From Lachnospiraceae bacterium (GTDB lineage: Bacteria; Bacillota; Clostridia; Lachnospirales; Lachnospiraceae), in assembly GCA_020860745.1 (NCBI GenBank), contig JAJBTR010000098.1:7334-24170 (forward strand): a DNA stretch of 16,837 nucleotides, read 5' to 3'. Each line of letters opens with the position of its first letter. The first letter of the stretch is position 1. Below, in pieces: positions 1,233 through 16,485 of the stretch. The notes under the pieces were generated by a model. The model was not told where the DNA came from, did not search any database, and was given only the letters and a program-made list of their open reading frames with translations. The position numbers were made by a program, and so were the translations under genes.

Positions 1233-1969
1233 TCAGCGATTCCTTCTGAATCTTCTTCTCATCAGACGGCGCTTCTTTTTGCCGGACGGCGGTTCTTCCA
1301 ACGGTGGCGCCGCATATAATTCAAACCCTTCCGGCGGCGGTCCCGCATACACGCACAGCGGCCCTTCATCCACGTCCAACCTCGGCGGCGCAGGATATAT
1401 GTTCAGATACAAAGCAGCATAAAATTCCTCCATCGACTGACACCGGCGAGCGGGATTCACTGCCATGCCTTTCAAAAGTATTTTCTGCTGTTCCGGTGTG
1501 ATATCTACCCCCAGATCACGCGGGGAAATCAGTTCGTCATGCAGTACCCGGTCCAGTGCCCGCGGCGGTTTCTTCCCGGTCAGACAACAGTAAATCGTCG
1601 CGGAGAGAGCGTAGACATCCGTCCACGGTCCCTGTCCTCTTCCCTGATATTGTTCAATAGGAGCAAAAGCATTCCTCAAAACAACAGGAAATTCTTCCTT
1701 TTTTCCCTCTCCTCCCTGGCACGCCCGAAATTCAGCAAACAGACCTTTTCGGCCTCCAACACCAGATTTTCCGGGCAGATATCACCATGTATCAGCCCGG
1801 CCTCATGCGCTGCGGTGAGCACATCGAACAGGGACTCGATCAGATCAAACAGTTCCTCAGGCGGGATCCGGCCGCCCCGCTTCTCCGCCAGCTCCGTAAA
1901 ACTCATCCCTTCTACCTGTTCCGATGGCTTATATACATTTTTATATGTCTCAAAAAATTCCTTTTTCAC
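1233..1969 (-). pseudogene. Degenerate Ser/Thr kinase remnant, frameshifted, N-lobe missing
   Basis: Two overlapping frames (1969-1676 and 1679-1233) together align without gaps to the C-lobe of the kinase at 5314-6465. The break lies in a run of six A on the sense strand (1699-1704 on the plus strand). Adding one A restores a continuous 245-codon frame in which exactly eight residues separate the RARE and PVVLRN segments, as in the intact paralogue (CARE to TVALKQ). Several features argue against activity: the whole N-lobe with P-loop and ATP-binding Lys is absent, HRD reads HGD, and DFG reads NFG. Homology begins at FFE, right at the junction with the radical SAM gene, whose TGA overlaps the GTG start (GTGA). 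The end is a basic KKKRRLMRRRFRRNR tail resembling the juxtamembrane segments of the sister kinases, but no membrane helix follows. It is probably a truncated tandem duplicate; a pseudokinase rescued by slippage is less likely. Confidence 0.8.
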
Positions 1970-3012
1970 TTTGAGCCCTCATCCTTTCGCCTCATCACCC
2001 TGGCACAGCCCGGCGATTCATACAGCTTTCCGTGAACAAAATAATTATAGGAGCGGCAGCCTCCGGCACAATATTTCCCAAACGCACAGGCCGCACACGC
2101 TCCGGTCAGCATCTCCGCCTGAAATTTCCGATTATAGGAAAAGGCATCCGGCGACTCCCAGATCTCCCTCAGAGACATTTTCCGAAGATTCCCCTCGGTA
2201 AAGCGGTCACTGTACATCGACTCGCAGCCGCGCACATTTCCCACACTGTCAATCCCGACGGAAGTAAGCCCGGCGCTGCATCCATGAAAACAGGATCTGC
2301 CGCGGCTTCCCCGCAGGATTTTCTCCTCTTTCGTGTAATACCCGATATTATCCGCGGCTATCATACGAAAAGGCGCTTCTTCTCTGTGATCCGCTATAAA
2401 ACGAATCACCTCCGCCTGTTCAAAACGAAAATCCACCGCTCCGTTCCCGGCATTCCCCATGGGAGAACACGCCTGAAGCTGCCAGGCGAAAATCGGAAAC
2501 TCCTGCAGTATCCCATACATTTCTTCCAGCCGCGTCACATTCCCGGCGTTCAGCGTGGTGATCACGGAAACCGGGATATCCTGTTCGGTCAGCACCCGGA
2601 TCGCAGACAGCGCACGCGCAAAGCTTCCCTTTTGCCGATACTGATCATGCAATTGTTCCGGTCCGTCCAGAGAGACAGCTACAGACTCAACATTTACCCT
2701 CTTTAACTGACTGACGACCTTATCTGTAAACAGAAATCCGTTTGTGATGATCGCGGTGAGAATACCTCTGTCCGTGAGCGCCCTGACAATTCTGGCCCAG
2801 TCTGCCCGCATAAACACTTCCCCGCCGATCAGGGACACCCTGCGGCATCCCAGATCAGCCAGCTGCCCCGCGACATCCAGGCATTCTTTTGTCGTCAGCT
2901 CGCCCGTCCGTGCCTTTCCACCCCCGGAGCCGCAATGCACACAGGAAAAGCAGCAGGCAAGCGTAATCTCCCAGACGCAATTTTGCAAACGCCAGCTCTT
3001 TTCGACGTCCAT
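1966..3012 (-). CDS. Radical SAM/SPASM domain protein
   Basis: A 348-residue enzyme with the radical SAM cluster motif CxxxCxxC at C20, C24 and C27 (ACCFSCVHC), a GGE motif at 63-65 and the SLDGP strand at 114-118. The C-terminal third carries a Cys-rich SPASM-type region (C241, C245, C263, C306, C309, C315, C319, C336) that would hold auxiliary iron-sulfur clusters. Known SPASM proteins include anaerobic sulfatase maturases and RiPP-peptide modifying enzymes, which use SAM to make a deoxyadenosyl radical in the cytoplasm. The substrate here cannot be read from the sequence. The ATG follows GGAGG at 3023-3019 with a six-base gap, and the gene starts 12 bases after the stop of the beta-helix ectodomain, so co-expression with it is likely. 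Its TGA overlaps the GTG of the kinase remnant. No obvious RiPP precursor lies beside it. Confidence 0.9.
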   Translation of the reverse strand: MDVEKSWRLQNCVWEITLACCFSCVHCGSGGGKARTGELTTKECLDVAGQLADLGCRRVSLIGGEVFMRADWARIVRALTDRGILTAIITNGFLFTDKVVSQLKRVNVESVAVSLDGPEQLHDQYRQKGSFARALSAIRVLTEQDIPVSVITTLNAGNVTRLEEMYGILQEFPIFAWQLQACSPMGNAGNGAVDFRFEQAEVIRFIADHREEAPFRMIAADNIGYYTKEEKILRGSRGRSCFHGCSAGLTSVGIDSVGNVRGCESMYSDRFTEGNLRKMSLREIWESPDAFSYNRKFQAEMLTGACAACAFGKYCAGGCRSYNYFVHGKLYESPGCARVMRRKDEGSK

Positions 3013-3024
3013 ACCAATCCTCCG

Positions 3025-5235
3025 TCAATCCCAGTACGTCCCGGCTTTTGCCGCGCTGCCCGTAAAGACGCCGCTGTTCATGGTGACAACCTCCGGCTCA
3101 CCCTCCGTGTCCAGGTAAAGCTCGCCCTGATTGTCCAGCGAGCCGGTCACTACCAGCCCCCGCTCCTCATCAGAGTTATATCTGGCATACAGGACTCCAT
3201 AGTTGGCAAAACTGCCGGAAACGATCATATTCGCGTCGGCGTCCAGATTCATCTCCCCGTAATTTTGTACCGCGCACCGCATCTCAATGGTATAGATCCA
3301 GTGGTTGCTGCATACATCAACCTCACCATAGTTTATCAGCTCCGTATCTCCGTCCATATAGATATCTCCGGCGTGGGTCGTGGCAAGGACTCCGCCTTCG
3401 GCAACGGTCACCGTACAACCTGACAGGCTCAGCTCCCCACAAATATTCAGGGATCCGCCAGTCTCAACGGAAATATCCACACCCGTCCAATATGCATCAG
3501 TCAACAGCACAAAATTTCCATCGCTCCCGACCGTCAGGGAATTTCCGATCGTACGGCTGCCGTAAAGGGAGGCGAGCAGCATTCCCTCATTCTCCACTGT
3601 CACATCCGCAAAGTCAAAATCATCCATGCAGGCCACTGACGCACCTTCGGACACGGCAAGGCTGCCGCCGCCCAGCAATCCGTGAGAGATAATACCGCCG
3701 TTTCCGGCGACGCTTAAGCATCCCTCCACCGTCAGACCGCCGTAATTTACCACCATCTTATTCACGGTCAGGTCGCCGGACGCCTCAATTTCCGCATCGA
3801 TCACAATCAGGTCTACGGAACCGTCGGCAAGGGCGCGCTCCAGCTCTTCCTGTGTCGTCACATACTCCCCGTCATAATCCGTGGCGCAGATTGTACGCGT
3901 AGTGACGTTGTCAAACGGAACCGTATCCTCGGAAGAGTAAGCCAGAATGCCCGGACCGCCGATCCTGCTTCCTGATGCCGCCGTGATCAGTGAAGCCGGG
4001 GCTGCGGAATCAATCAGACCACCGTTCGAAACCTCTGCGGTGGATGCGGTCAGCGACAGCGTACCAAAGTTTTCAATGATACCGCTGTTTTCAACAGACG
4101 CATAGTCGCCGATCTCAATCGTACCGGCATTGACGAAACGATAATTTGAGGACAGATAGGTTTCCCCGCCGCTTCGTCCCTCCAGGGTCAGCGTACCATA
4201 ATTAAATAACCCGTTATCCCGGAAATCAAAGAACCAGTTATTCTCTCCGTCACCAAAAACTGCCGTCCCCAGATTAATAAAATCACCGTCAAACGCCGAA
4301 GCAGTCTCCGGCTCCAGTTCTCCTATGTTTATAAAGTTACCATCTCCACTATAATCAAGACTTCCTGACATTGATCCGTAGTTCACAATAGTGAAAAAGT
4401 CATCGCTTTGACCGGCGGATAAACACAATGTCATGCTCCCGCGGTTCACCAGAATACTGCCGTCCACACACCACCCCCCGGCGTCATACGTCTTGTCAGA
4501 CGATGTGACAGACGCGCCCTCCTCGATCAAAACAGGGACTGACTGGATAATGATTTCATCCTCCGAGAAAATAATCTCGCTTCCGGAGGTAACGCGCACC
4601 GCCTCCGTGTCCGGATCATCCAATGCACTGCGGAGAGCTTCCTCTGTGGAGACCTCAACCGCATTGGCAAAAGCCGTCTCCTCAGAAAAAACCAGATAAG
4701 CTTCACTGTCTGCCGCTTCCAGCGAATCCTGACCGTAAAGATCAAGGCTCGCCCCACTCTCCAACACCAGATCATCTTCCTGCTCCACCCAGAGTTTCCA
4801 GAGATTCAGAATACCGCCATCCTCAACGTACACAGACCCGCCGGCAATGCGAAGGAAACCCTGATCAACACTCAGGTCACCCTGGATATCCACAATTCCT
4901 CCATCAACCACAACGATCGCCTGTGCAGATGTCAGCTGCTGATTCGACGGAATGAGAATCGGCTTGGAAATCTGCAGAATTCCATCAGAGATGTAAATAT
5001 CAGCATCCTCCGACAGAATAATCGCCGATACATCATCCGCATCCATCGCCTCACGAAGTTCCTCCTCGTTCGTCACTTCTCCGGCCTCTGCAAAAATCGC
5101 CTCCAGATCATCCGCTGAGACCCGGGATATCCCGTCCGTTCCATTATCTGTTGTATTCCCGGTCTCTTCTGTCTCTTTTGTATTTTCCTTTGAAGAATAC
5201 CATACCCCAAGGCCGACGACCGCGGCCGCAATCAC
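3025..5235 (-). CDS. Membrane-anchored beta-helix-like ectodomain, split from its kinase by an in-frame TAG
   Basis: The 736 residues from a GTG at 5235 begin inside a membrane helix; the same frame upstream reads RKKRYVLIVVLC before it and runs open back to the TAG that ends the kinase (5316-5314). No Shine-Dalgarno site precedes the GTG and no ATG or TTG lies in frame between TAG and GTG, so an independent start is doubtful. After the helix comes an acidic Thr/Glu linker (about 14-37) and then a long repetitive region of short strands with Gly, Asn and Ser turns (patterns such as NYGEMNLDA, NYGVLYA, NQGELYLDT), as in right-handed parallel beta-helices. Three cap-like helices punctuate it: TNEEELREAM (55), STEEALRSAL (196) and TTQEELERAL (460). 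Topology predicts the ectodomain outside the cell, as adhesin or ligand sensor. The ancestral gene was probably one receptor kinase of about 1,146 codons (6465 to 3025). Confidence 0.75.
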   Translation of the reverse strand: MIAAAVVGLGVWYSSKENTKETEETGNTTDNGTDGISRVSADDLEAIFAEAGEVTNEEELREAMDADDVSAIILSEDADIYISDGILQISKPILIPSNQQLTSAQAIVVVDGGIVDIQGDLSVDQGFLRIAGGSVYVEDGGILNLWKLWVEQEDDLVLESGASLDLYGQDSLEAADSEAYLVFSEETAFANAVEVSTEEALRSALDDPDTEAVRVTSGSEIIFSEDEIIIQSVPVLIEEGASVTSSDKTYDAGGWCVDGSILVNRGSMTLCLSAGQSDDFFTIVNYGSMSGSLDYSGDGNFINIGELEPETASAFDGDFINLGTAVFGDGENNWFFDFRDNGLFNYGTLTLEGRSGGETYLSSNYRFVNAGTIEIGDYASVENSGIIENFGTLSLTASTAEVSNGGLIDSAAPASLITAASGSRIGGPGILAYSSEDTVPFDNVTTRTICATDYDGEYVTTQEELERALADGSVDLIVIDAEIEASGDLTVNKMVVNYGGLTVEGCLSVAGNGGIISHGLLGGGSLAVSEGASVACMDDFDFADVTVENEGMLLASLYGSRTIGNSLTVGSDGNFVLLTDAYWTGVDISVETGGSLNICGELSLSGCTVTVAEGGVLATTHAGDIYMDGDTELINYGEVDVCSNHWIYTIEMRCAVQNYGEMNLDADANMIVSGSFANYGVLYARYNSDEERGLVVTGSLDNQGELYLDTEGEPEVVTMNSGVFTGSAAKAGTYWD

Positions 5236-5313
5236 ACAGAGAACAACAATCAGAACATACCGTTTTTTCCTGTTCCCGACATTTTGTGTTTTATCATTCC
5301 GCCCGCCATCTTC

Positions 5314-5316
5314 CTA
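5314..5316 (-). other. In-frame amber stop inside an ancestral receptor-kinase frame
   Basis: The kinase ends ...DTDEDT-TAG, and the same frame continues E-D-G-G-R-N-D-K-T-Q-N-V-G-N-R-K-K-R into the membrane helix with no other stop until 3025. One base change (for example GAG to TAG) would explain it. TAG acts as a normal stop elsewhere in the window: at 6498-6496 it ends the neighbouring kinase just after its membrane helix, with the next gene's ribosome binding site close behind. General TAG recoding is therefore unlikely. Confidence 0.85.
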
Positions 5317-6465
5317 CGTATCTTCATCTGTGTCGGCTTCCGTACCGATATAGGTTGCCGTCCGGTCAATAACCTCCCCATCCACTGCAACCTTCGTATC
5401 GGTATCCTCTTCCTCTTTCGGCTCTGTGTTCTCCTCTGAAGATTCCGCATCATCCCCCGGAGCTTCCTCTGTCGTATACAACCCTCCGTATAACTCCTCC
5501 ACAGAACGATATCGCTTCCCGGGGTTTACCGCCATACCCTTCAGCAGCGCTTTCTGTTGCGCCGGTGTGATATCGACCCCCAGATCACGCGGGGGAATCA
5601 GCTCGTCGTGTAGCGTCCGGTCCAATGCCTGAGGCGGTTTATTCCCGGTCAGACAGTAGTAGATTGTCGCAGAGAGAGCATAGACGTCCGTCCACGGTCC
5701 CTGCCCTTTTCCCTGATATTGCTCGATCGGCCCATATCCCTGTTTCAGGGCGACTGTCATCGTTTCCATCCCCGTCGCCGCCTCTCTGGCGCAGCCGAAA
5801 TCCAGAAGACGGATCATGCCGTCCTCCAGCATCAGGTTATCCGGGCTGATGTCCCGGTGTAAAAGACCGGCCTTATGAACCGTGCCGAGCGCGCCGAAAA
5901 GCGGCTTAACCAGCGAAAACAGCTCGTCCGGCGGTATTTTTCCGCCCCGCTGCTTTACCAGTTCCATGAAATTCGTCCCGTCCACATACTCCATGATGAT
6001 GTATGCCGTATTGTTTTTCTCGAAAAAATCCCGCACCATGACGATCTGCGGCTGTTTTTCCATCCGGGCCATTGTCCTGGCTTCATAGAGAAACTTTTTT
6101 ATGCCTTTCTCGTAATCGACCGTGGCGGAATTCGTATTGCGCATCACGGAAAGCGAAGTTCCCACATGACGGGAGACCCGATCCACAGGAAAATACTCCT
6201 TGATGGCGACTTTCATCTCCAGTCGCAGATCGCAGCCGATATATGTGATACCGAAACCGCCTTCCCCCAGAACCCGTCCGACGAGATACCTGCCCATAAG
6301 GACTGTTCCGGGCGGCAAATGATGCGGTGAAGCATGATATGCCCCGTGCGTCAGCCCGCATACCGAACAGACTTCTCCCGGTTCCACGCGATTCATGCAG
6401 TATGGGCAAAATCCGTAATAAATCTCGTTCCCGTTATTAGTATCTGTATGAAAGTTCCCGTCCAT
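5314..6465 (-). CDS. Zinc-ribbon Ser/Thr protein kinase (cytoplasmic half of a split receptor kinase)
   Basis: A 383-residue protein with an N-terminal zinc ribbon (C20, C23, C33, C36), a full protein kinase domain (about 60-330) and an acidic linker. Visible kinase features are the P-loop GEGGFG (67-72), ATP-binding Lys89 in VAIKEYFP, a probable alpha-C Glu128, the catalytic loop HRDISPDN with D205 and N210, DFG at 222-224, a GPIEQY segment in place of APE, and D260 of the F helix. The catalytic-loop Lys usual in HRDLKxxN is Ser, as in its two sister kinases here. It should phosphorylate Ser/Thr on partner proteins in the cytoplasm. The ATG at 6465 follows a good GGAGGAG site. It lies 30 bases after the previous kinase. 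Its frame runs on past TAG into a membrane helix and ectodomain, so it was probably membrane-bound in the ancestor and is soluble as written. Confidence 0.93.
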   Translation of the reverse strand: MDGNFHTDTNNGNEIYYGFCPYCMNRVEPGEVCSVCGLTHGAYHASPHHLPPGTVLMGRYLVGRVLGEGGFGITYIGCDLRLEMKVAIKEYFPVDRVSRHVGTSLSVMRNTNSATVDYEKGIKKFLYEARTMARMEKQPQIVMVRDFFEKNNTAYIIMEYVDGTNFMELVKQRGGKIPPDELFSLVKPLFGALGTVHKAGLLHRDISPDNLMLEDGMIRLLDFGCAREAATGMETMTVALKQGYGPIEQYQGKGQGPWTDVYALSATIYYCLTGNKPPQALDRTLHDELIPPRDLGVDITPAQQKALLKGMAVNPGKRYRSVEELYGGLYTTEEAPGDDAESSEENTEPKEEEDTDTKVAVDGEVIDRTATYIGTEADTDEDT

Positions 6466-6495: not shown

Positions 6496-7698
6496 CTATC
6501 TGATCAGAAAAATCAAGAGCAAAACAACAACAATTATCACAACAATAAGAATGACAGGCCATAAGCGCCGTTTTTTCCCATACACCCCCGACGTATCCAT
6601 TTCCGACGCCGTCTTTCTTTCTGCCTTACGATCTGCGCCGGATATCAGGTCATCTCCGGCACCCGCACCTGTTCCGGATTCCCCGATCGTATTCTGTCCC
6701 TCATCTGTTCCGAATTCATCAATCGTATTGTCTTCCTCATCCGGAGATGAAGCAAAAAACGCTGCGGCAAAATCATCCATCGTCTGAATCCGTTCATTCG
6801 GTTGTATCGCAAGCCCCCGGATAATCGCCTCGTTCTGGCTCCTTGTCAGATCCGAGCCGAATTCCAACGGTGTTTTGAGATACGGATCTTCCAGACGGTC
6901 CACCGCGGACGGCGGAATGACTCCGGTCAAGGCATAGTATATGGTAGCTGCCAACGCATAGACATCCGTATATGTCCCCTGTCCTTTTGTCAGGTACTGT
7001 TCGATAGGTGCAAATCCGTGTTTTAAAAGAACTGTCATGGATTTATCGCCCTCCATGGAACGGGCCGACCCGAAATCAATCAGCTTTAATGTATCATCCG
7101 TCATCCAGAGAATATTGTCCGGACTGATGTCCCGGTGAAGAATCCCCTCCTCATGCAAACCTGCAAGATCCCGAATCAGTGCCGGAAGCTTCGGCAGCAG
7201 ATCGTTTGCCGGAATTTTCCCTCCCATCTCCTGAAGCTTATGAAATAAAGGCACGCCGTCCAGATATTCCATAACCAGATAAGCAGTTCCGCCGGTTTTG
7301 AAGCAGTCTTTCACATGAACAACAGAATCCAACGGTCTGATACCCGCGAGTCTCCTCACTTCTTTAAAGAAGTTATCATATCCTTTCTCAAACTCTTCCT
7401 CCATCCCCGATTTTGCAGATACCGACTGATCCGGATTGCGCAGCGCACAGCGAATGGGAAAATACTCTTTTATAGCGACCCTGACCCCATGCTCCTGTTC
7501 CAGTGCAGTATATGTGACGCCGAACCCTCCCTGTCCTCTCGCACCGCCCAGACGGTAGGAAAGAAGCGTCCCTTCCAGAAGTGTTCCCACTGGCATCTGC
7601 GTTTCCCCGGCTGTCCACGCCAGATTGCCGCCGCAATCAGGGCAGTATCTCGCCTCATCATCATCAACAGGTTTCACACAATACGGACAGTACCTCAT
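6496..7698 (-). CDS. Zinc-ribbon Ser/Thr protein kinase with C-terminal membrane anchor
   Basis: The frame is open from a GTG at 7707, but GGGAGG at 7712-7707 sits eight bases before an ATG at 7698 and overlaps that GTG, so the ATG is the better start and gives 400 residues beginning MRYCPYC. Domains: zinc ribbon (C4, C7, C19, C22), kinase (about 45-315) with RGQGGFG P-loop, Lys77 in VAIKEYFP, HRDISPDN at 188-195, DFG at 208-210 and APIEQY, then an acidic Thr-rich linker with a repeat (NTIDEFGT, NTIGESGT) and a basic GKKRRLW followed by a single membrane helix (about 380-399) ending the protein. This tail anchor places the kinase on the cytoplasmic face of the membrane. The linker threonines are plausible autophosphorylation sites for FHA proteins of the operon. 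It follows the PP2C gene within 15 bases, a common kinase-phosphatase pairing. Confidence 0.92.
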   Translation of the reverse strand: MRYCPYCVKPVDDDEARYCPDCGGNLAWTAGETQMPVGTLLEGTLLSYRLGGARGQGGFGVTYTALEQEHGVRVAIKEYFPIRCALRNPDQSVSAKSGMEEEFEKGYDNFFKEVRRLAGIRPLDSVVHVKDCFKTGGTAYLVMEYLDGVPLFHKLQEMGGKIPANDLLPKLPALIRDLAGLHEEGILHRDISPDNILWMTDDTLKLIDFGSARSMEGDKSMTVLLKHGFAPIEQYLTKGQGTYTDVYALAATIYYALTGVIPPSAVDRLEDPYLKTPLEFGSDLTRSQNEAIIRGLAIQPNERIQTMDDFAAAFFASSPDEEDNTIDEFGTDEGQNTIGESGTGAGAGDDLISGADRKAERKTASEMDTSGVYGKKRRLWPVILIVVIIVVVLLLIFLIR

Positions 7699-7713
7699 CC
7701 GCCACACCTCCCA

Positions 7714-8430
7714 TTATAATATCGTCAGCCAGACCGCCGCCGCGGTATTGTTGTCATTGTCATCCGGGATGCGGCGGCTGTGATACATGCGCATCCTGCA
7801 AATCCAGTCCTGCGGGTCGCTTGCTTTTTTCAACTCCCGTTCCATCTCTTCCTCCAGAACATATTCCCAGAATCCGTCAGAGCAGAGGAGGAAAGCATAC
7901 CATCCGGGATCCAGGCAGCGCTCCTGCGCTTCCGCCTTCAATTCTCCCTCCTGCCCAAGCGCTTTCAGTATCCGGCTGCGATCCTCATGAAAACGAATCT
8001 GTTCCGGTGTAATCTCCCCGAGCATGACGGCAATCTGCGACGCGCTGTGATCCTGCGTCTGAAAATCAAGCTTCCCTTCCCGGAAAAAATAAAGCCTGCT
8101 GTCTCCCACATGGATCCACCCCACATGCCGTCCGGAAATCGTCAGAACGACAGCTGTGCTCTTCATCGCGCAGGAAAGATTCTGTTTTTCACATACCGCC
8201 CTGTGTGCTTCCCGGATCAGGCGGGTCAGGCTTTCCGAATCTGTAACGCCGGGACGCCAGCTGCTGCAGATAACATCCGCCGCCGTGGAAGAAGCAATCC
8301 GTCCGCCTCCATGACCCCCCAGGCCGTCTGCGACAACCATACAGAGTTCTTCACCGGCTCCCCGCATCTGCACGGTATCCTCATTAACCGGCCTGCCGCC
8401 GATATCAGAATATTGCGCTGTCTGAATCAT
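7714..8430 (-). CDS. PP2C-family Ser/Thr phosphatase, soluble
   Basis: A 238-residue single-domain PP2C (PPM) phosphatase, about the usual size for bacterial Stp/PrpC enzymes. Metal-binding motifs are visible: NED with D18, VVADGLGGHGGG with D35, HVGDSRLYFF, LLCSDGFWEYV, and a late DDNDNNTAA. It should remove phosphate from Ser/Thr residues using two Mn or Mg ions in the cytoplasm. The ATG at 8430 has GAGG eight bases upstream and lies five bases after the previous PP2C stop. The anchored kinase follows directly, so this is its likely opposing enzyme. Confidence 0.93.
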   Translation of the reverse strand: MIQTAQYSDIGGRPVNEDTVQMRGAGEELCMVVADGLGGHGGGRIASSTAADVICSSWRPGVTDSESLTRLIREAHRAVCEKQNLSCAMKSTAVVLTISGRHVGWIHVGDSRLYFFREGKLDFQTQDHSASQIAVMLGEITPEQIRFHEDRSRILKALGQEGELKAEAQERCLDPGWYAFLLCSDGFWEYVLEEEMERELKKASDPQDWICRMRMYHSRRIPDDNDNNTAAAVWLTIL

Positions 8431-8435
8431 CTCTT

Positions 8436-9260
8436 TTACCTCTTATCTTCACATCGGATAATGATTGCCGAATAATTATCCTGTCCCAAAATCTTTTTTT
8501 CTTCTATCATGCGCCCGATTTCCTCCGCCGCGTCCTCTGCCCGTAGAGCAAGTGCCCGGCAAATTTCCTCCCCGCTAAGCGAACGATATACGCCGTCGCT
8601 CATCAGGGCAACACAATCATCCGGCAGCAAATGAAGCGGCTTCGCAGGCAAATCCAGATATTTCAACTGTCCCATCCCGAAAAAACTGGTGAGACCCGCC
8701 GCGTGCGGGTGAGATTTTGCCTCATCGAACGTCCCATTTCCGTTGATCATGCGGAGGATCAGTTCGTTTTGATAGATATGCTCCCTGTTCAACTGCAGGA
8801 GTTCGCCATTCCGGTACAGACAGATCCTGCTGTCGCCGACACTGGCGTAATATAATTTTCCCTGATAAAACAGCCCGGCAACCACCGTAGCTCCGCAGGT
8901 ACCAATGCGCGCCATGCCCAGTACACGGTTCACCTTACGGTTTGCACAGTCAAACAGTTCTGCCAGACGTTCCGTGGGTTCTCCGTCCGACAATGAAAAT
9001 TGCCGCATCATAGACGAAGTCACTGTACCGCTTACCAGATCTCCATTCTCCATGCCGCCCATACCGTCCGAGAGAACCGCAAGAAACCCCTGCTCGCTAT
9101 AAAGCTCCGGCGGAGAGAACGCCAGACTGTCCTCCTGACATTGTCTGTCCCCCTGCCCGGATACCTTCCCGGCAGAGAGCCGGTACGCCGCCGATTTCCG
9201 GCCGAATTTTCTCCTGACCGATGCAATCTTACGCAAACTCCCAACCTCTCTCCCAATCAA
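8436..9260 (-). CDS. PP2C-family Ser/Thr phosphatase, second copy
   Basis: PP2C motifs: CQED with D44, VLSDGMGGMENGD with D65, ASVGDSRICLY, LMSDGVYRS and a final GQDNYSA. It is closer to the receptor phosphatase at 11461-12900 than to its downstream neighbour: both share a NREHIY segment and a (S/D)(H/D)P...L.SF(F/L)GMG..(K/E)Y(L/I)D block, so a local duplication is likely. The start is uncertain. TTG at 9260 has a GGAG six bases upstream and overlaps the end of the FHA frame by 32 bases; another in-frame TTG is at 9236. The PP2C core begins near residue 33, so either start leaves the domain whole. Catalysis is expected in the cytoplasm. Confidence 0.9.
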   Translation of the reverse strand: MIGREVGSLRKIASVRRKFGRKSAAYRLSAGKVSGQGDRQCQEDSLAFSPPELYSEQGFLAVLSDGMGGMENGDLVSGTVTSSMMRQFSLSDGEPTERLAELFDCANRKVNRVLGMARIGTCGATVVAGLFYQGKLYYASVGDSRICLYRNGELLQLNREHIYQNELILRMINGNGTFDEAKSHPHAAGLTSFFGMGQLKYLDLPAKPLHLLPDDCVALMSDGVYRSLSGEEICRALALRAEDAAEEIGRMIEEKKILGQDNYSAIIIRCEDKR

Positions 9261-9709
9261 AACGCTCTCCGCACATGGCGATAAACATCAGATGTGTTGA
9301 GCCAACGGTTATGACATCATAGCTCTCAATTTTCGTAATACCCATAACCGTTTTCCGGTTGATCTGGATCAGATTCCGCCCGGAGGCCGGACCCGCAAAA
9401 AAAGAGACGGTCACGCTCATCATATGCCACCACAGCATGTTTTTCTCTGGAAATTTTCTGATCACCGGGAATACATATGTCTCCGATTTCTCTTCCTATA
9501 TAATTGTATCCCCCATGGATTCGGTAATCACACCCTTTCGCCGGTCCGTCCACACACACCAGCCAGCCGGACACCGGGTTAATATGGTTTTCCTCCTGTC
9601 TGTGAAAAGCAGCCGTGGCCAGACCGCTGCAGACCGGGCAGAAATCATGAATCGCGGCGTTGTAGTAATGTCCGTTGGGGCACCGCACCAGTCTGTTGAT
9701 AACATCCAT
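9229..9709 (-). pseudogene. Zinc-knuckle FHA protein, frameshifted in a T7 tract
   Basis: Two frames (9709-9326 and the frame ending at 9229) together match the FHA protein at 14473-15111 over its whole FHA half. The first holds an N-terminal CPNGHYY...CPVC zinc-binding motif (C10, H14, C24, C27), GWLVCVDGP, the FHA core IGR, and SREKH. The second continues FFAGPASGRN and ends MCGERFDW, like the paralogue's LCGENFDW. The break is in seven T on the sense strand (plus 9397-9403); removing one T restores a gap-free alignment (RLFFAGPASGRN against KMFFFGPSEGRN) and a protein of about 159 residues. ATG at 9709 has GAGGAG seven bases upstream, better than the TTG at 9715. It overlaps the previous FHA gene by 65 bases. 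As written, the FHA domain is truncated after its phosphopeptide-binding loop; phase variation or sequence error are alternatives to decay. Confidence 0.8.
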
Positions 9710-10067
9710 ACGCAATCTCCTCTGTATTTGCAGTTTGTTTTAATAGTTCTACCTGAAACAGATTTGTCGAATCTGCCAGATAAAACTGGCTCCCCGGCAG
9801 AACAGTCATGGGATAATACGGCGGAAAAGGACTGTCGTCTACATGCCAGGTACCGTTTCTGGATCCGAAATCCACCATGACCAGAAGCCCCTGCTGCCAG
9901 CGCAGCATACAGTGATGGCGGCTGACCGTCATAGAATCGTTTGAAAAACGCACGCCGCAGTCTGCATCTCTCCCGAACTGCAGGCCATCCGGTCCGATCA
10001 TCCAGGTTTTCCCCCTGAGCGGTCCTGACAGGCAGTGCAGAACAATTTTTTCATTCATTACTGACAC
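9645..10067 (-). CDS. Small FHA domain protein
   Basis: A 140-residue protein that is mostly one forkhead-associated domain: FGR at 31-33, SRHH with S49 and H52, and GSRNGT at 68-73, the residues that normally hold a phosphothreonine. It has no signal peptide or membrane helix, so it is a cytoplasmic reader of phosphorylated partners. GTG at 10067 has AAGGAG seven bases upstream; an in-frame ATG three codons later (10058) is also possible. The last 40 residues extend past the FHA fold, are Gln- and Thr-rich, and overlap the start of the next FHA gene, which suggests translational coupling. Confidence 0.88.
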   Translation of the reverse strand: MSVMNEKIVLHCLSGPLRGKTWMIGPDGLQFGRDADCGVRFSNDSMTVSRHHCMLRWQQGLLVMVDFGSRNGTWHVDDSPFPPYYPMTVLPGSQFYLADSTNLFQVELLKQTANTEEIAYGCYQQTGAVPQRTLLQRRDS

Positions 10068-10107
10068 ACCTCTACTCCTTCTTATTATCTAACCCACGAA
10101 AAACACA

Positions 10108-11442
10108 TCAGACATTTCCGTGCCGCACAGCGATCTGAATCTCCTGCGTCGAGGAGCCAAGGCTGATGCGCGCACCGACACCCACCTCATAGAGCTGCTC
10201 CGGGTTGAGCCTTGTACCGTTGACAAACGTTCCATAGGAGGACCCGAGGTCACGGATGTACACCCGTCCGTTCTGACACATGATCTCACAGTGCCGTCCG
10301 CTGACCCCGGAGGTTCCCGCCGGGACGACCAGATCGTTCGCCGCCGGATCCCGGCCGATGCGCACATGTTGCTTCACCGGATAGCGTTTTCCGGAAAAAT
10401 AACCCGCAACGCCCAGAATCCGGAATCCGCTGTCAAGCTCTTCCCGCTTTCCGTCAATCGGAATGGTCTCGGCATCAGAAAACGACGGGCTGCCGGCCGC
10501 ATCCCCGACCGCATAGGTCAGGCGGTTTTCATTGGCTCGGACAGTGGCTGCCACCACCTGATTTAACCCCTTCTTCATCATCCAGAATGCTACAAGAATA
10601 ATAATCACACTTAAAATCACACTCATGGAAACTATCGGTAGAGAATCCCAGATTGTATGCAAGGCAATGACAAGGACAAAATATTTCAGGAACACCGGCT
10701 TCGTAAAATGCTTCATCTGAAGTTTTTCATCGCCCTTGGCCCACACAAGCGCGCCGCAGGAAACCGCCGCCCAGAGAATATGTCCGCCGAGCGCCCAGAA
10801 GATTCGACCTCCTAGTTCAGAAAAACTCCAGCTTTCTTGAATTATTGCATACCATGCGTCCTCAATAGCGGTAAACCCGGCTCCGATGGTGGAGCCGATC
10901 AACATGCCGGTAAGGATATACTTTTTGTCCTTTCCCCGCAGGAAGAATGCAGCGGCTCCAACCTTTGCGGTCTCCTCCACAATGCCGACGATGATTGTCA
11001 TATAGCCTGGCAGAATCTCATAACCGATCGTGGTAAATACGAAAGATAATAGTCCCCCGATGAGCAGCACTACAATCACAGCCACAAAGGAGACATTACG
11101 CGGAATATTCATCTCCCAGAAAAAGCACATCGCGGTTATGGGAACCAGAAAGCTTCCTGCCATGAATAAAAACGGAAGAGCTGCTGTATGTCCAAATCCG
11201 AAGAGTAAAACATAGAGGAGTGCCATGACCAGCAGTGTACAGAGGAAAACTCTGGCAAACATATACGGTTTCTGCCAATTCTTAAGCATATTTTTTTCAT
11301 CCGGCGTTGTCAGCGCTGTCCCCGCGATAAAAAGCCGCGCATTCTCCTCCGGCGTGTGTTTCCGGAAAACATCGCTGAACACATCCCCCCATGTCAGTTT
11401 GTCGGTTCCCGCCTTTTTATAAAAGGTCCTGTTTTCGTTCAT
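10108..11442 (-). CDS. PrsW-like intramembrane protease fused to an FHA domain
   Basis: A 444-residue protein with about eight hydrophobic segments (about 60-290) and a C-terminal FHA domain. The membrane half has the PrsW signatures: EETAK with E156 and E157, F190xxxE194 (GFTAIED), H221, and H262xxxD266 (LHTIWD). PrsW-type proteins are glutamic intramembrane proteases; Bacillus PrsW starts release of a sigma factor by cleaving its anti-sigma factor. The cytoplasmic FHA part (about 345-440) keeps IGR (362-364), SGRH (381-384) and SSYGT (401-405). The fusion suggests that phosphothreonine binding recruits or switches the protease. It follows the receptor phosphatase by 18 bases with only a modest GGGGGA site, consistent with coupling. 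No sigma or anti-sigma gene is in the window, so the substrate is unknown. Confidence 0.88.
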   Translation of the reverse strand: MNENRTFYKKAGTDKLTWGDVFSDVFRKHTPEENARLFIAGTALTTPDEKNMLKNWQKPYMFARVFLCTLLVMALLYVLLFGFGHTAALPFLFMAGSFLVPITAMCFFWEMNIPRNVSFVAVIVVLLIGGLLSFVFTTIGYEILPGYMTIIVGIVEETAKVGAAAFFLRGKDKKYILTGMLIGSTIGAGFTAIEDAWYAIIQESWSFSELGGRIFWALGGHILWAAVSCGALVWAKGDEKLQMKHFTKPVFLKYFVLVIALHTIWDSLPIVSMSVILSVIIILVAFWMMKKGLNQVVAATVRANENRLTYAVGDAAGSPSFSDAETIPIDGKREELDSGFRILGVAGYFSGKRYPVKQHVRIGRDPAANDLVVPAGTSGVSGRHCEIMCQNGRVYIRDLGSSYGTFVNGTRLNPEQLYEVGVGARISLGSSTQEIQIAVRHGNV

Positions 11443-11460
11443 CCTATGTATCCCCCGTCA

Positions 11461-12900
11461 TCAGAAGTCCAGAATCAGGCAGGTGAAATTATCCTGCTTC
11501 GGATTCTGCGCCGCCAGCACCTGTTGTTCCATCAGCCTGGCGGCCTCATCCGCATTCGCGGTACTCTCCAGTATCTTTATGATCGTCCGCTCCGAAATCG
11601 TGTTAAAGACGCCGTCCGACATCAGCAGCAGCTTATCGCCGCGCCGTACATCCACCGGGCGCAGACTGCCGTCAATGTATTCCAGATCTCCCATACCCAG
11701 GAAACTGACCAGACGCTCCCTCTGCGGGTCTGATTTCACCCTGTCGAACGTTGCTTTTTTATTTACTGCCATGTGAAGCAGCTTCTGCTTATAGATATGC
11801 TCCCGGTTGATCTGAATGAGGTGGCTGTCGCAGTAGAGGTAAATGCGGCTGTCGCCCACAGCAATCCAGCGAAAACGCGATCCGTTGGTCAGCACGGCCA
11901 GAAGCGTCGCTCCGCTCTTGTAGATCTGATCCGGACCCAACAGATTCAGCACCTGACTGTTGCAAAGGCTCAGCATCTCATACAACGGGTTATTGCTGCC
12001 GGAAGCCCGGACCTGGTCAGCCGCCTGAATCATCCCCTTCACAGCCTGCTGACTGACTTTCTCTCCGTTAGAAAGTCCGCCCATACCATCCGAGACCACC
12101 GCAAGAAATCCGAGACGGGTAGACGCGGTGCCAAAGGTATCCTGCTGATTCCTTCGGTTTCCGATATTATGCACAATGCCGATCGCGCGGCCGTCCGAAT
12201 CCGGCATAGAAGGATTTTCGACTCGCGCCGTTTCCTCTTTCCATACGGTTTCTTCCTTATGGTTCCCCTCTGCCGCTGTCCCGACATCCGTAATTTCCTC
12301 TTTTTTCCCGCACAGGTGCAATATGCCCGCAATCGCAAGAATAACCGCAGCACCGCATACCAGTCCGAGTGCCAGCGCCTGTACAGCCGAAAGGCCGGAC
12401 AATAGTGCAGCAAATTCCCGATTTTCTGCGGCAACTGCACTTTCATCAACCGGTACAGCCGTCAGGGCAAACGTCATATTATCATTCGCCTCAAGCGTCG
12501 GACTCATTTCCAGCGTATATCCTTCCGCACTCTCATCCTCCACCGAGACAGAATACTCGTACGCTTCCCCTTCGTCGCTGAAGACCGCCACTTTTTCCTC
12601 CGCACAATACTCATTCCCGGCGCTTAATTCCTCAATCTCAATACTTTCCGCCTTGTTCCCCGCCTTGTCTGCCACATCCGCAATTTTTCGTGTAACAACG
12701 ACTTCTATGCCTTCATCAGGTGGCATTCCATCCGCATTGTCGTCGTGTTCCCCGGCCAGTGTGACAGTCAGCGTCACCTCTTTCGTATCGCCGGCGTTTT
12801 CCGCGGGAGTCAGCTTTTCTGTCGCGGCCTGCACGCTGGTGCTTCCCAGCAAAATCATCACGCACACTCCAGCCGCACCGCATAGTAATTTATGTCTCAT
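11461..12900 (-). CDS. Receptor-type PP2C phosphatase (signal peptide, ectodomain, membrane helix, PP2C)
   Basis: The frame is open from 12933, but GGGAGG at 12914-12909 sits eight bases before ATG 12900, and that start begins a clean signal peptide (MRHKLLCGAAGVCVMILLGS, probable cleavage after VQA at 25). The 479-residue product then has an acidic ectodomain (about 26-168) of strand-like segments such as YEYSVSVEDESAEGYTLEM, which loosely recalls Cna-B or other beta-sandwich modules, a membrane helix (about 172-197), a short linker and a cytoplasmic PP2C domain (about 237-479). PP2C residues: D254 in QQDT, D271 in SDGMGG, D350 in GDSR, D429 in SDG, D470 in QDN. Topology is ectodomain out, phosphatase in, so it may be a sensor that resets the kinases. 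It is paralogous to the PP2C at 8436-9260. Confidence 0.9.
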   Translation of the reverse strand: MRHKLLCGAAGVCVMILLGSTSVQAATEKLTPAENAGDTKEVTLTVTLAGEHDDNADGMPPDEGIEVVVTRKIADVADKAGNKAESIEIEELSAGNEYCAEEKVAVFSDEGEAYEYSVSVEDESAEGYTLEMSPTLEANDNMTFALTAVPVDESAVAAENREFAALLSGLSAVQALALGLVCGAAVILAIAGILHLCGKKEEITDVGTAAEGNHKEETVWKEETARVENPSMPDSDGRAIGIVHNIGNRRNQQDTFGTASTRLGFLAVVSDGMGGLSNGEKVSQQAVKGMIQAADQVRASGSNNPLYEMLSLCNSQVLNLLGPDQIYKSGATLLAVLTNGSRFRWIAVGDSRIYLYCDSHLIQINREHIYKQKLLHMAVNKKATFDRVKSDPQRERLVSFLGMGDLEYIDGSLRPVDVRRGDKLLLMSDGVFNTISERTIIKILESTANADEAARLMEQQVLAAQNPKQDNFTCLILDF

Positions 12901-12957
12901 CCGTCTTTCCTCCCGGCATCTTTCTAATTTCACTTTATTAAGGCAACGTCCCCTGTA

Positions 12958-14454
12958 TCATTCCACATAAAAACTCTCTCCGGAAAAATGGATGGTATTT
13001 CCCTGCCTTAAGCGATACCACCTGTCCCTCTGCAGCCTTTGTCCCGATACAAGCGTGCCATTGGTAGAGTGATCCATAATATACAACGCCAGATTCCTGT
13101 CGCACCACAGGCGGCACTGCGTACGGCTGATGCTTTCCGCACCGGCGGGATAACGCAGACGGCATTCCTCACTCCGGCCAATCAGGATACCGTTCTCTGC
13201 TGCCAGAATAAATACCTGACCCTGATAGAGTCCCGCGATTCCGCGCAGCCTGCAGCCGTCACGCGGGATCGTCGCCGTCACCCTGGCTTTTCCGGCTCTT
13301 TTTTCCATACCGAAATAATTCATCATTTTTGCGAACTGACCCGCGAGTTTCCAAGTTCCTGGCTGAGATTTCTGCTCCGCAAGCTTCCGATCTCCTGCCT
13401 CACATTTCTGCCCCGCAGCCGTTCCGGACAAAACCGGCGCCCGCAAACCGGAAACATTTCGGTCGGAAGACCCCTGCTTCACCAAAATATCCTCCCCGGG
13501 AAACAGAGCAGCCGCCATCTCCAGCGCCGATTGGAACCGGTCTTTCGGCTCCAGCTCCATACCCTTGCGAATCGACCGGCTCACATGAGCCGGAAGTTCC
13601 GGGCAAAAATTCTCAACAGGAACCACTTTTTCGTTCTGCATCAGCCGGCTCGGCGCTTTCGGCGGCATCTTTCCGCTTAATGCGTAATACATCGTCACAC
13701 TAAGGGCGTATACATCTGTCCATGGGCCCTGCTTTCCGTTTGTATAATACTGTTCCATCGGCGCAAAAACATGCTTTAAGATCGTTGTCATTCCATTCCC
13801 GCTGTTATAACAGCGAACCGACCCGAAATCAATGAGTTTGGCCTCTGTCAGGCTTGTCAGGAAGATATTATCCGGACTGATATCCCTGTGAATCAGCCCC
13901 CTCCCATGTATAATATGAAGTGTGCGAAGAATCTCCCTGATATAAGAAGAAAGCTGACTCCACGGAATCCTGCGCTGCCTGCGGATCATGCTGCGCATGT
14001 CAAACCCGGAAAGACATTCCATAGAGTAGTAAACCGTATTATTTTCCTCCGCCAGACCATACACATTTACGATGGAAGGCTCCCGGCGGAATCCATAGAG
14101 AATCTGTGCCTCCTCTTTAAAGTGCTGCCTGCATTTGGCGAAATAATCTTCCTGTCCGCTCTTCGGCACAATCCGATTGGTAACGATATTCCTCTCTACA
14201 TCCAGATCCGGATACAGTTCTTTGACGACCACTCTCTGGTTCCATTTGTAATCCCACGCCAGATAGGTAATGCCGAAGCCCCCTTTACCGATCACTTTCC
14301 CGATATAGTAGTGGGAAGCAAGCATATACCTGTCCGGCAGAGTATTGACAAGGCGTTCCGAAGCCGAAGCCTTTGCACTTTTATGGCAGTATGTACAGAT
14401 TCCGCTCTCAAGCCTCCCGGAAAAGCAGTTCGTACATAATTGCTGTAAATTCAT
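12958..14454 (-). CDS. Zinc-ribbon Ser/Thr protein kinase with C-terminal FHA domain
   Basis: A 498-residue protein: zinc ribbon (C7, C10, C20, C23), kinase domain (about 49-320) and FHA domain (about 404-498). Kinase residues: GKGGFG P-loop (56-61), Lys78 in VVVKELYP, HRDISPDN at 189-196, DFG at 209-211, APMEQY, and D247 in the F helix. The linker between kinase and FHA is basic and Gln/Lys/Gly-rich. In the FHA part IGR (425-427) and TNGT are present, but the usual SxxH reads SRTQ, so phosphothreonine binding may be changed. There is no membrane helix. It should be a cytoplasmic kinase that docks on phosphorylated partners or on itself. ATG 14454 has an AGGA nine bases upstream. Relative to its sisters it lacks the tail anchor and has VVVK instead of VAIK. 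Confidence 0.93.
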   Translation of the reverse strand: MNLQQLCTNCFSGRLESGICTYCHKSAKASASERLVNTLPDRYMLASHYYIGKVIGKGGFGITYLAWDYKWNQRVVVKELYPDLDVERNIVTNRIVPKSGQEDYFAKCRQHFKEEAQILYGFRREPSIVNVYGLAEENNTVYYSMECLSGFDMRSMIRRQRRIPWSQLSSYIREILRTLHIIHGRGLIHRDISPDNIFLTSLTEAKLIDFGSVRCYNSGNGMTTILKHVFAPMEQYYTNGKQGPWTDVYALSVTMYYALSGKMPPKAPSRLMQNEKVVPVENFCPELPAHVSRSIRKGMELEPKDRFQSALEMAAALFPGEDILVKQGSSDRNVSGLRAPVLSGTAAGQKCEAGDRKLAEQKSQPGTWKLAGQFAKMMNYFGMEKRAGKARVTATIPRDGCRLRGIAGLYQGQVFILAAENGILIGRSEECRLRYPAGAESISRTQCRLWCDRNLALYIMDHSTNGTLVSGQRLQRDRWYRLRQGNTIHFSGESFYVE

Positions 14455-14472
14455 TTTTCATCATCCTGACCA

Positions 14473-15111
14473 TCAGTTGGCCCAGTCAAAGTTTTCTCCG
14501 CAAAGCGGTACAAATATCAGTTTTGCACTGCCGATGCTCAGAGTATCGTAGGGATGGAGCTCGGTCGGCAGCATCACCATCTTGTCGTTCACCCGAACGA
14601 TGTTTCTGCCTTCTGAGGGGCCGAAGAAAAACATCTTCTCCACATCGTCATAAGCAATCAGCGCATGCTTTTCCCTGCTGATCTTCTGGTCGCCGCGGAT
14701 GCAGATATCCATATGCTCTGACCGTCCGATCTGATTGTAGCCGGTGCGAATGCGGTAGTCATTGCCGCGATCCGGTCCATCCACACAGACCAGCCAGCCG
14801 ACCACGGGAGTGAAGCCGCTTACCCGACCGGGGCTTACCGGAACCGTTTCAGAGCTATAGTCATTTCCGCCAATGTCCGCATTCAAAAATCCATCCATGG
14901 GACGAGTCGGGGCTTTCGTCTCATCTGAAGAGTTGACAAATGCGCCCACCGGTTCTGTCGCTCCGATATCGGCAAACCCGCCGTCCACCGGCTGGGTGGC
15001 GCCGACGTCGCCAAAACCGCCGCCGGAGAATGCCATCGACCCGACCTCCGGACCGGCCGTATTCGCATCTGTGCCAAAGTATTGTCCGTTTTCATATTTT
15101 ATCCTATCCAT
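14473..15111 (-). CDS. FHA domain protein with N-terminal Thr-x-Pro repeats
   Basis: A 212-residue soluble protein. The first 100 residues are Gly-, Asp- and Phe-rich and carry three similar blocks, GATQPVDGGF (T39), GATEPVGAF (T52) and APTRPMDGF (T69). The second half is an FHA domain with IGR (128-130), SREKH (145-149) and GRN (168-170), ending LCGENFDWAN. This layout, a flexible Thr-bearing N-tail before an FHA fold, recalls GarA/OdhI-type switches in which a kinase phosphorylates the tail and the FHA domain then binds it, although the motif sequence differs. ATG 15111 follows AAGGAG with a seven-base gap. The FHA half is a paralogue of the frameshifted gene at 9229-9709. It is a good candidate substrate for the kinase encoded directly downstream. 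Confidence 0.9.
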   Translation of the reverse strand: MDRIKYENGQYFGTDANTAGPEVGSMAFSGGGFGDVGATQPVDGGFADIGATEPVGAFVNSSDETKAPTRPMDGFLNADIGGNDYSSETVPVSPGRVSGFTPVVGWLVCVDGPDRGNDYRIRTGYNQIGRSEHMDICIRGDQKISREKHALIAYDDVEKMFFFGPSEGRNIVRVNDKMVMLPTELHPYDTLSIGSAKLIFVPLCGENFDWAN

Positions 15112-15159
15112 ATCTGCTCTCCTTTTCTTTTTTTATCTTAAAATGCAACAAGAATCATG

Positions 15160-16485
15160 TCACATAATATGGATCTTAAAACTGTTCTTCTCTGATCCGA
15201 GCGAGAAAACTGCTCCGTCCTCTACCCTGACCGGCTGTTGCGCAGACAGCTTTCCGAATCCCTGCAGAAACGTCCCGTAGGTAGAACCGCTGTCCATCAG
15301 AAAAAGCGCGCCGCTGCTGTCCTTAAATAACTTACAGTGATTCCGGCTCACACCTTTTACATCTGTCGGAAACCGAATGCCGGAAGAGACATCCCTCCCA
15401 AAGCTTATCCCCGAATTGCCCACGGGATACGTCCGTCCGTCCATTATCCCCGAAATCCCGGTGACGCTCACGGTACCCAGCACCGGCCGCGGAGCAGGCA
15501 TCGGCTGCACATCACTCCCATTCGGAGAAACCGCGCTGTCCGCCGCCTTCACCAACGGATCATCGGCGATCGGCCGCACAAAGGAGTCATCCACGATTGG
15601 CTGCACAAAGGAATCATCCGCAATCGGTTGCACAAAAGAATCATCCACGATCGGCTGCATCGGCCGTACGGGAGGTACGTCTGCAATCAGTGAATCCTGC
15701 TGCACCTGTTCCTCTGTCTCCCCGCCTTTTTTCCTCTTCCTGCTGCGGAAAAAAGCAGAAACCGCAGCAGCTATAACAGCGATCCATATCCAGCTCAGTC
15801 CGGAAAATGAATATCCGCCGGAGACAGCCGAGAGATCCGTATCAAAAGCGAGGAATAAATTCTCCTCCGTCAGAATCGCGACCGCATCGCCGTCTTCATT
15901 CATTAAAAGGGCAGGCACGTACGCCAGATCGTCCGGCTCCTCACAGGAATTGCCATCCTCATCAACAAACGCTCCCGCCAGAGACACGACGGTCTCCCCG
16001 TCCAGGGAAACCTCGCTGCCTCCCGTCACCTGATAATTTGCGGTCTGAACTCCATAATCCTCATCCACATAGATCAATGTCAGAATCTCATTCTTTTCGG
16101 TTGATACCATTTCTTTCAAATGCCTTGACGAGGGAATATCGTCCTCATCCTCATAGGCAAACGTCACACAGCCGTAGCCATCCATCTCATTATCCGGATA
16201 GATTACCGCATAACCGTTATCTTCCCAGTCCCATACAGTATAAAGCTCTGCACTGTCTGAGAGTGCACTATCCAGTGCGACTACCATCGCATCCCCATCC
16301 TCATCCTCCATCAGATAGGCAATGCCGATGGATACAGTCTCATCGGATTCGTTATAACCGCGAATATAAAATACTTCATCCTCGATATCATCCGAAGCAA
16401 AAGCCGTCAGTTGAAAAGCGCTTATAAACAACGCTGCCATCGTCATCACAATCCATACCCTGCATCTTTGTTTTATCTTATTCAT
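15160..16485 (-). CDS. Membrane FHA receptor: signal peptide, acidic ectodomain, membrane helix, repeats, FHA
   Basis: A 441-residue protein starting at ATG 16485 with GGAG six bases upstream. Residues 1-30 form a signal peptide (basic start, hydrophobic core, probable cleavage after AFA). Residues about 31-228 are an extracellular, very acidic domain with no family I recognise; many EDGD and DEDG turns might bind calcium, which is speculative. A membrane helix (about 230-246) is followed by RSRKRKK, which fits the positive-inside rule. The cytoplasmic part has four nine-residue repeats (277-312) and a C-terminal FHA domain with FGR (362-364), SRNH (380-383) and STYGT (401-405). It should couple an outside signal to phosphothreonine binding inside. 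It is the first large gene of the run and may mark the entry point of the pathway. Confidence 0.9.
   Translation of the reverse strand: MNKIKQRCRVWIVMTMAALFISAFQLTAFASDDIEDEVFYIRGYNESDETVSIGIAYLMEDEDGDAMVVALDSALSDSAELYTVWDWEDNGYAVIYPDNEMDGYGCVTFAYEDEDDIPSSRHLKEMVSTEKNEILTLIYVDEDYGVQTANYQVTGGSEVSLDGETVVSLAGAFVDEDGNSCEEPDDLAYVPALLMNEDGDAVAILTEENLFLAFDTDLSAVSGGYSFSGLSWIWIAVIAAAVSAFFRSRKRKKGGETEEQVQQDSLIADVPPVRPMQPIVDDSFVQPIADDSFVQPIVDDSFVRPIADDPLVKAADSAVSPNGSDVQPMPAPRPVLGTVSVTGISGIMDGRTYPVGNSGISFGRDVSSGIRFPTDVKGVSRNHCKLFKDSSGALFLMDSGSTYGTFLQGFGKLSAQQPVRVEDGAVFSLGSEKNSFKIHIM
15550..15657 (-). repeat. Four tandem 27-base units coding nine-residue repeats
   Basis: The units read QPIVDDSFV, QPIADDSFV, QPIVDDSFV and RPIADDPLV, giving a 36-residue juxtacytoplasmic linker between membrane helix and FHA domain. 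The DNA copies are near-identical, so the copy number could vary between strains by slippage or recombination. The acidic, Pro-containing unit suggests an extended spacer or a docking segment. Confidence 0.88.

Follow-up and report, generated by a model that had tools for sequence, protein, structure and literature searches.

What happened to a receptor kinase gene that carries a single in-frame stop codon between its kinase and its membrane helix? The question is raised by a 16,837 bp stretch of a Lachnospiraceae bacterium genome (GenBank assembly GCA_020860745.1, contig JAJBTR010000098.1, positions 7,334 to 24,170 of the forward strand), which was analysed at its full length and is called the window here. 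On its reverse strand a Hanks-type Ser/Thr kinase gene ends at TAG 5316-5314, and the frame runs on behind the stop into a membrane helix and a large ectodomain. An original prediction made from the sequence had offered two readings: the recent splitting of a receptor by a nonsense mutation, or a stop that is read through at some rate to give a small membrane-bound fraction beside a soluble kinase. The former is well supported by the results below, in that homologues are fused, the corresponding gene in a genome of the same genus (G001) is intact and the ectodomain is undecayed. We consider it probable that a recent nonsense mutation has silenced the ectodomain and left behind a kinase that is soluble and probably active.

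Architecture of the interrupted gene

The kinase half is a 383 residue open reading frame (6465-5314, reverse strand) whose ATG start is preceded by a good ribosome binding site (GAGGGAGGAG). It matches Pkinase (E 6.6e-32), and in alignment the window kinase has every element expected of the kinase part of a full-length receptor: the zinc ribbon, glycine loop, lysine, HRD and DFG. Beyond the TAG, 762 further codons are open in the identical frame up to a TGA (3027-3025), beginning with the peptide EDGGRNDKTQNVGNRKKRY followed by VLIVVLCVIAAAVVGLGVW. Membrane helix and predicted beta-solenoid share the frame of the kinase, and only the TAG interrupts what would otherwise be one continuous receptor frame. 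A frameshift was rejected as the cause of the split because the frame is identical before and after the stop.

That the frame is open downstream is not a product of chance: it aligns from end to end to full-length homologues, and the same 2286 bases, free of stops in this frame, contain 38 and 53 in the other two forward frames and 13, 25 and 21 in the three reverse ones. No ATG, GTG or TTG occurs in frame between the TAG and GTG 5235, which lies inside the helix, and the 25 bases upstream of that GTG contain no Shine-Dalgarno-like stretch. The layout originally predicted, with a kinase ending at the TAG, an identical frame continuing through KKR, helix and ectodomain, and a downstream half that has no ribosome binding site and its first start codon within the helix, is confirmed in each of these respects.

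Relatives of the two halves

A protein search with the downstream half returned 10 matches: the window itself, P0002, and 8 proteins of 1081-1202 residues that join kinase, membrane helix and ectodomain. A kinase is fused to the ectodomain in 8 of the 9 non-window matches, the exception being P0002, an ectodomain-only protein of 681 residues and 42% identity. The kinase half, searched against proteins of receptor length, gave 559 matches at E 1e-100 or better; among the best 120 of these 559, 114 are at least 950 residues long, the zinc ribbon is present in 114, and a hydrophobic helix lies within residues 320-640 in 116. Close kinase members in the genome draws (E 1e-95 or better) number 5/397 for the family and 4/391 for the class, window included. 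Outside the window genome, kinase and membrane helix lie in one open frame at 7/7 loci whose kinase match reaches 64% identity or more (G001, G267, G439-G443), of which G439 begins inside the gene (5' end) at a contig end, G440 ends 18 residues past the helix and G443 ends in the ectodomain. The remaining kinase matches in the genome draws are at most 51% identical, and the few examined carry other ectodomains or none.

In G001 the syntenic locus contains the receptor as a single 1250-codon frame (P0011, kinase 78% identical to the window), preceded by the neighbouring kinase (63% identical) and followed by a homologue of window gene 118-1227 (89% identical). This zinc-ribbon Hanks-type receptor kinase has the same neighbours and the same order of zinc ribbon, kinase, variable linker, helix and solenoid, and the window frame differs from it in being cut in the linker by one TAG. 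P0137, a protein kinase from a Clostridiales bacterium, is equal in length to P0011. Because nearly all protein matches are fused, the syntenic G001 gene is intact and all seven loci are open through the helix, the fused receptor is the ancestral state. The full-length fusion that the original prediction had proposed to look for is the rule among homologues (8/9 ectodomain matches; 7/7 loci), and an ancestral arrangement of two genes was rejected on that ground and for want of a start site in the second half.

The PASTA receptor kinases PknB/Stk1 are built on a comparable plan, with a cytoplasmic Hanks kinase, one membrane helix and an extracellular sensor. The window receptor falls outside that group: its kinase scores 153 bits where the NF033483 cut-off is 450, and no PASTA repeat matches its ectodomain at E 0.1.

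A second family member was probably split near the same place, by a frameshift. P0015 (a 414 residue kinase) and P0002, the ectodomain nearest to that of the window, are likewise two proteins, from the same source and apparently on one 68,239-base contig. Because the end of P0015 reads as a frameshifted membrane helix, the pair probably represents a second break, whose cause, judged from the protein alone, was probably a frameshift and not a stop. A TAG within the G358 match was considered as a further case and rejected, as it lies upstream of the kinase start and outside the linker.

Shorter relatives were also read at their ends, using 28 proteins of 292-667 residues among the best 120 kinase matches. 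In four of these (P0024, P0115, P0117, P0128) little follows the kinase domain; on this account the family seems to include soluble members, and a soluble kinase seems to be tolerable. Several of the same 28 have a frameshifted look (for example P0015, P0022, P0027, P0131), from protein ends only.

Position and age of the stop

Linker length is highly variable in this receptor family, and the TAG alters no conserved residue. Its column in the alignment, where inspection of the homologues had been suggested, is a gap in 7 of the 8 other kinase-bearing proteins and a residue in P0010, and none of them has a stop there.

Conservation was scored in a set of ten members, leaving out the near-duplicates P0006, P0008 and P0009 and the kinase-less P0002. 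The window ectodomain retains 34/34 columns that are invariant in the nine other receptors, and its kinase block retains 139/142. The ectodomain count becomes 34/35 when L043 is left out, 40/40 without P0010 and 51/56 without G001 and G267, the last being within the range of the other members (51/52 to 51/66). Approximately 2.9% of random substitutions in the downstream frame create a stop, and, assuming a transition/transversion ratio of 2, the absence of a second stop in 762 codons limits unconstrained divergence to at most ~0.045 substitutions per site, where 3 stops would be expected. Because all 34 invariant columns are kept and no further stop has appeared, either the break is young or translation of the frame continues.

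In the sections of Belinky et al. 2021 (PMC7918605) drawn on here, in-frame stops are described as widespread in bacterial genes and for the most part short-lived; they are under purifying selection, though at a fairly high ratio of non-synonymous to synonymous substitution rates (dN/dS). The window receptor likewise has a single stop with an intact frame behind it, in this instance in one genome only.

Fold and history of the ectodomain

A beta-helix-like ectodomain had been predicted, and this is borne out by a Pfam match to the adhesive domain Pectate_lyase_5 (PF20585, E 8.5e-8) and by AlphaFold2, which from a nine-sequence alignment predicts a beta-solenoid (mean predicted local distance difference test score, pLDDT, 79.9; predicted template modelling score, pTM, 0.75). 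A Foldseek search with the predicted ectodomain gave one match at E <0.001, to a bacterial self-associating protein, and weaker matches to Ag43, a PL6 alginate lyase and a pectate lyase; only the solenoid class is claimed, because these structure matches are weak and their TM-scores low. A sequence search of solved structures found no relative of the ectodomain at E 0.1. Three kinase relatives from the same bacterial family (L061, L063, L065) have repeat ectodomains that resemble leucine-rich repeats by eye, and in L063 and L065 a second kinase gene directly adjoins.

The two parts of the receptor differ in their relationships. Between the window and G001 (L039 7113-10865) the kinase blocks are 81% identical and the ectodomains 29%, and the window ectodomain is nearer to that of other metagenome-assembled genomes (L043/L044, 38%). 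Window and G001 group together in the kinase tree (support 100), whereas the ectodomain tree places the window in a group with L043/L044/P0002, separate from G001 and the rest (support 100). This discordance suggests that ectodomains were exchanged between lineages across the linker, a lead rather than a result because the ectodomain branches are long.

Alternative explanations

Several observations weigh against a recent nonsense mutation in a gene that was until then intact. An undecayed ectodomain is also expected of a frame that is still translated. The TAG is seen in one genome only, and the searches brought up no sister strain from which a derived or polymorphic state could be read; beyond the window's own proteins, no relative at least 90% identical occurs among the matches listed (the best 120 for the kinase queries). 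The ectodomain itself is, by these comparisons, fast-evolving and rare: the downstream half matches 2 of 61 relatives (the window's genome and one weak match), and P0002 used as query matches 3 of 397 family genomes (the window's and two weak ones). The G001 ectodomain fell below detection in that search of 61 relatives, yet it aligns over its length at 29% identity. Finally, the assembly is in 430 contigs, 91.89% complete and 2.41% contaminated.

The state of the assembly, together with the undecayed ectodomain, would also fit an artefact, in which the receptor of this genome is in truth uninterrupted and the TAG arose as a consensus error or as the minor allele of a strain mixture. We think this unlikely. 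Substitution errors are rarer than frameshifts in short-read assemblies, and the TAG is present in two contigs, since the single sequences recorded for P0012 (383 residues) and for P0001 (736 residues, from GTG 5235) each occur in two contigs, although these contigs may derive from the same reads.

Low-rate readthrough of a leaky regulatory stop would produce from one mRNA a minor membrane receptor beside a majority of soluble kinase, and the intact downstream frame is what it would require. A G directly follows the TAG, and G at that place increased readthrough in a library of E. coli reporters (PMC11126739, in the sections drawn on here); in-frame stops under purifying selection are described as widespread in bacteria (PMC7918605, same limit). 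The first 15 bases past the TAG are also G-rich and T-poor, with only 1.4% of the gene's codon positions as extreme, although the same test over other lengths gives 52% (6 bases), 25% (9) and 6% (18). In the same sections of PMC11126739, downstream bases changed to T lowered readthrough, but TAG was less leaky than TGA, the 5-base composition behind the stop had no significant correlation with readthrough, and readthrough was uncorrelated with RNA structure. The RNA downstream of the TAG is modestly structured (z -1.96, with 7/200 shuffles as stable), and a structured readthrough element was rejected as not convincing. No other examined member has a stop at this place, and neither a CUA anticodon nor a PylS above its cut-off was found in the incomplete genome, as set out below. 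The small membrane-bound fraction of the original prediction finds no specific evidence beyond the intact downstream frame and the G after the stop, and we regard a leaky regulatory stop as distinctly unlikely.

It is very improbable, in our estimate, that the locus encodes two working proteins, with the ectodomain translated separately by reinitiation or from an internal start and pairing with the soluble kinase. The downstream frame is intact, and a short open reading frame in another frame starts just past the TAG, where ribosomes could reload. Against this stand the fused homologues and the lack of any in-frame ATG ahead of the helix; because the first start-like codon, a GTG with no ribosome binding site, is inside the helix, an internal-start product would begin partway through the helix and have no basic anchor.

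Programmed, genome-wide reading of TAG as an amino acid codon has nothing in its favour beyond the open frame, and we give it next to no credence. TAG ends the adjacent kinase of the same operon (7707-6496), and of the 16 tabulated window frames only those two kinases end in TAG. A tRNA search of the genome gave 31 matches, of which ARAGORN named 28; the cmscan alignments of the other three show UUU, UUU and UGG. No CUA anticodon occurs among the 31, and PylS scores reach 25.6 and 24.7 bits where the cut-off is 178.15; these absences are not proof, because the genome is incomplete and the 31 matches include no tRNA for Tyr, Phe, Asp or Met. General recoding had been called unlikely on the strength of the neighbouring gene, and that judgement stands.

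Neighbouring genes

The receptor lies among further kinase genes (Table 1). The decayed second kinase copy, which belongs to the same operon and fits the picture of gene breakage, is 74% identical to the kinase over residues 234-330 and 50% identical over residues 145-228; it has no ectodomain, has lost most of the N-lobe and abuts the convergent gene 118-1227. It is absent from the syntenic locus of G001. The locus is, on this comparison, a site of kinase-copy gain and loss.

The radical SAM/SPASM gene was found at E 1e-40 in 2 of 20 genus genomes, the window's included, and in G010 (L105) a 70% identical piece of such a gene follows a different receptor-kinase frame. On the other side, window positions 6496-16485 (reverse strand) are densely packed with genes for kinases, PP2C phosphatases and proteins with FHA domains, some of these products being membrane-bound, and form a local phosphorylation signalling cluster.

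Table 1. Features of the interrupted receptor gene and adjoining genes (window coordinates)
Feature	Position	Strand	Basis
Kinase half: zinc ribbon (CPYC...CG) at the N terminus, then Hanks-type Ser/Thr kinase domain and acidic linker up to the TAG	5314..6465	-	Open reading frame table, Pkinase match, aligned catalytic motifs
TAG in frame within the hypervariable linker (read-through codon 384)	5314..5316	-	Open reading frame table, alignment
Remaining linker with basic KKR, no in-frame start codon	5257..5313	-	Translation
Membrane helix VLIVVLCVIAAAVVGLGVW, read-through residues 404-422	5200..5256	-	Mean hydropathy 2.95
GTG, first start-like codon of downstream half (residue 411), within membrane helix, no ribosome binding site	5233..5235	-	Open reading frame table
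Ectodomain: predicted beta-solenoid with Pectate_lyase_5 match, TGA 3027-3025	3025..5199	-	Pfam, predicted structure
Adjacent kinase with terminal membrane helix, ending at TAG; 63% identical counterpart in G001 syntenic locus	6496..7707	-	
Radical SAM/SPASM gene, 12 bases downstream of ectodomain, GGAGG ribosome binding site; absent from G001 syntenic locus	1966..3012	-	
Decayed, frameshifted second kinase copy in two frames	1233..1969	-	HRD to HGD, DFG to NFG

Conclusions

Under the reading we prefer, a recent nonsense mutation, the original gene would have encoded a cytoplasmic zinc ribbon and kinase, an acidic linker, one membrane helix and a beta-solenoid outside the cell, until, recently, one codon of the variable linker became TAG through a single nonsense change. 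Translation would now mostly stop there and yield a kinase of 383 residues that is soluble and keeps its catalytic motifs, but is tied neither to the membrane nor to any signal from outside the cell. Judging from the sequence, this kinase is probably made and active and the ectodomain probably silent; the latter would be made little or not at all, and would be expected to decay. Gene decay of this sort is ordinary, the receptor kinase is of a common kind, and the split is real but ordinary.

A less ordinary view of the same locus would make the linker a recurrent point of uncoupling, at which the TAG in the window, the probable frameshift of P0015/P0002 and the suggested ectodomain exchange coincide, and at which the TAG would be kept leaky to supply a soluble kinase along with a rare membrane receptor. 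We rate this as a long shot. A small literature search found no description of a soluble and membrane-bound kinase pair made through a leaky stop, and such a stop, if leaky by design, would be a simple route to soluble and membrane forms of one kinase. If the split is instead the ordinary result of a recent nonsense mutation, the locus would offer a natural test of whether receptor kinases of this kind work without their sensor.

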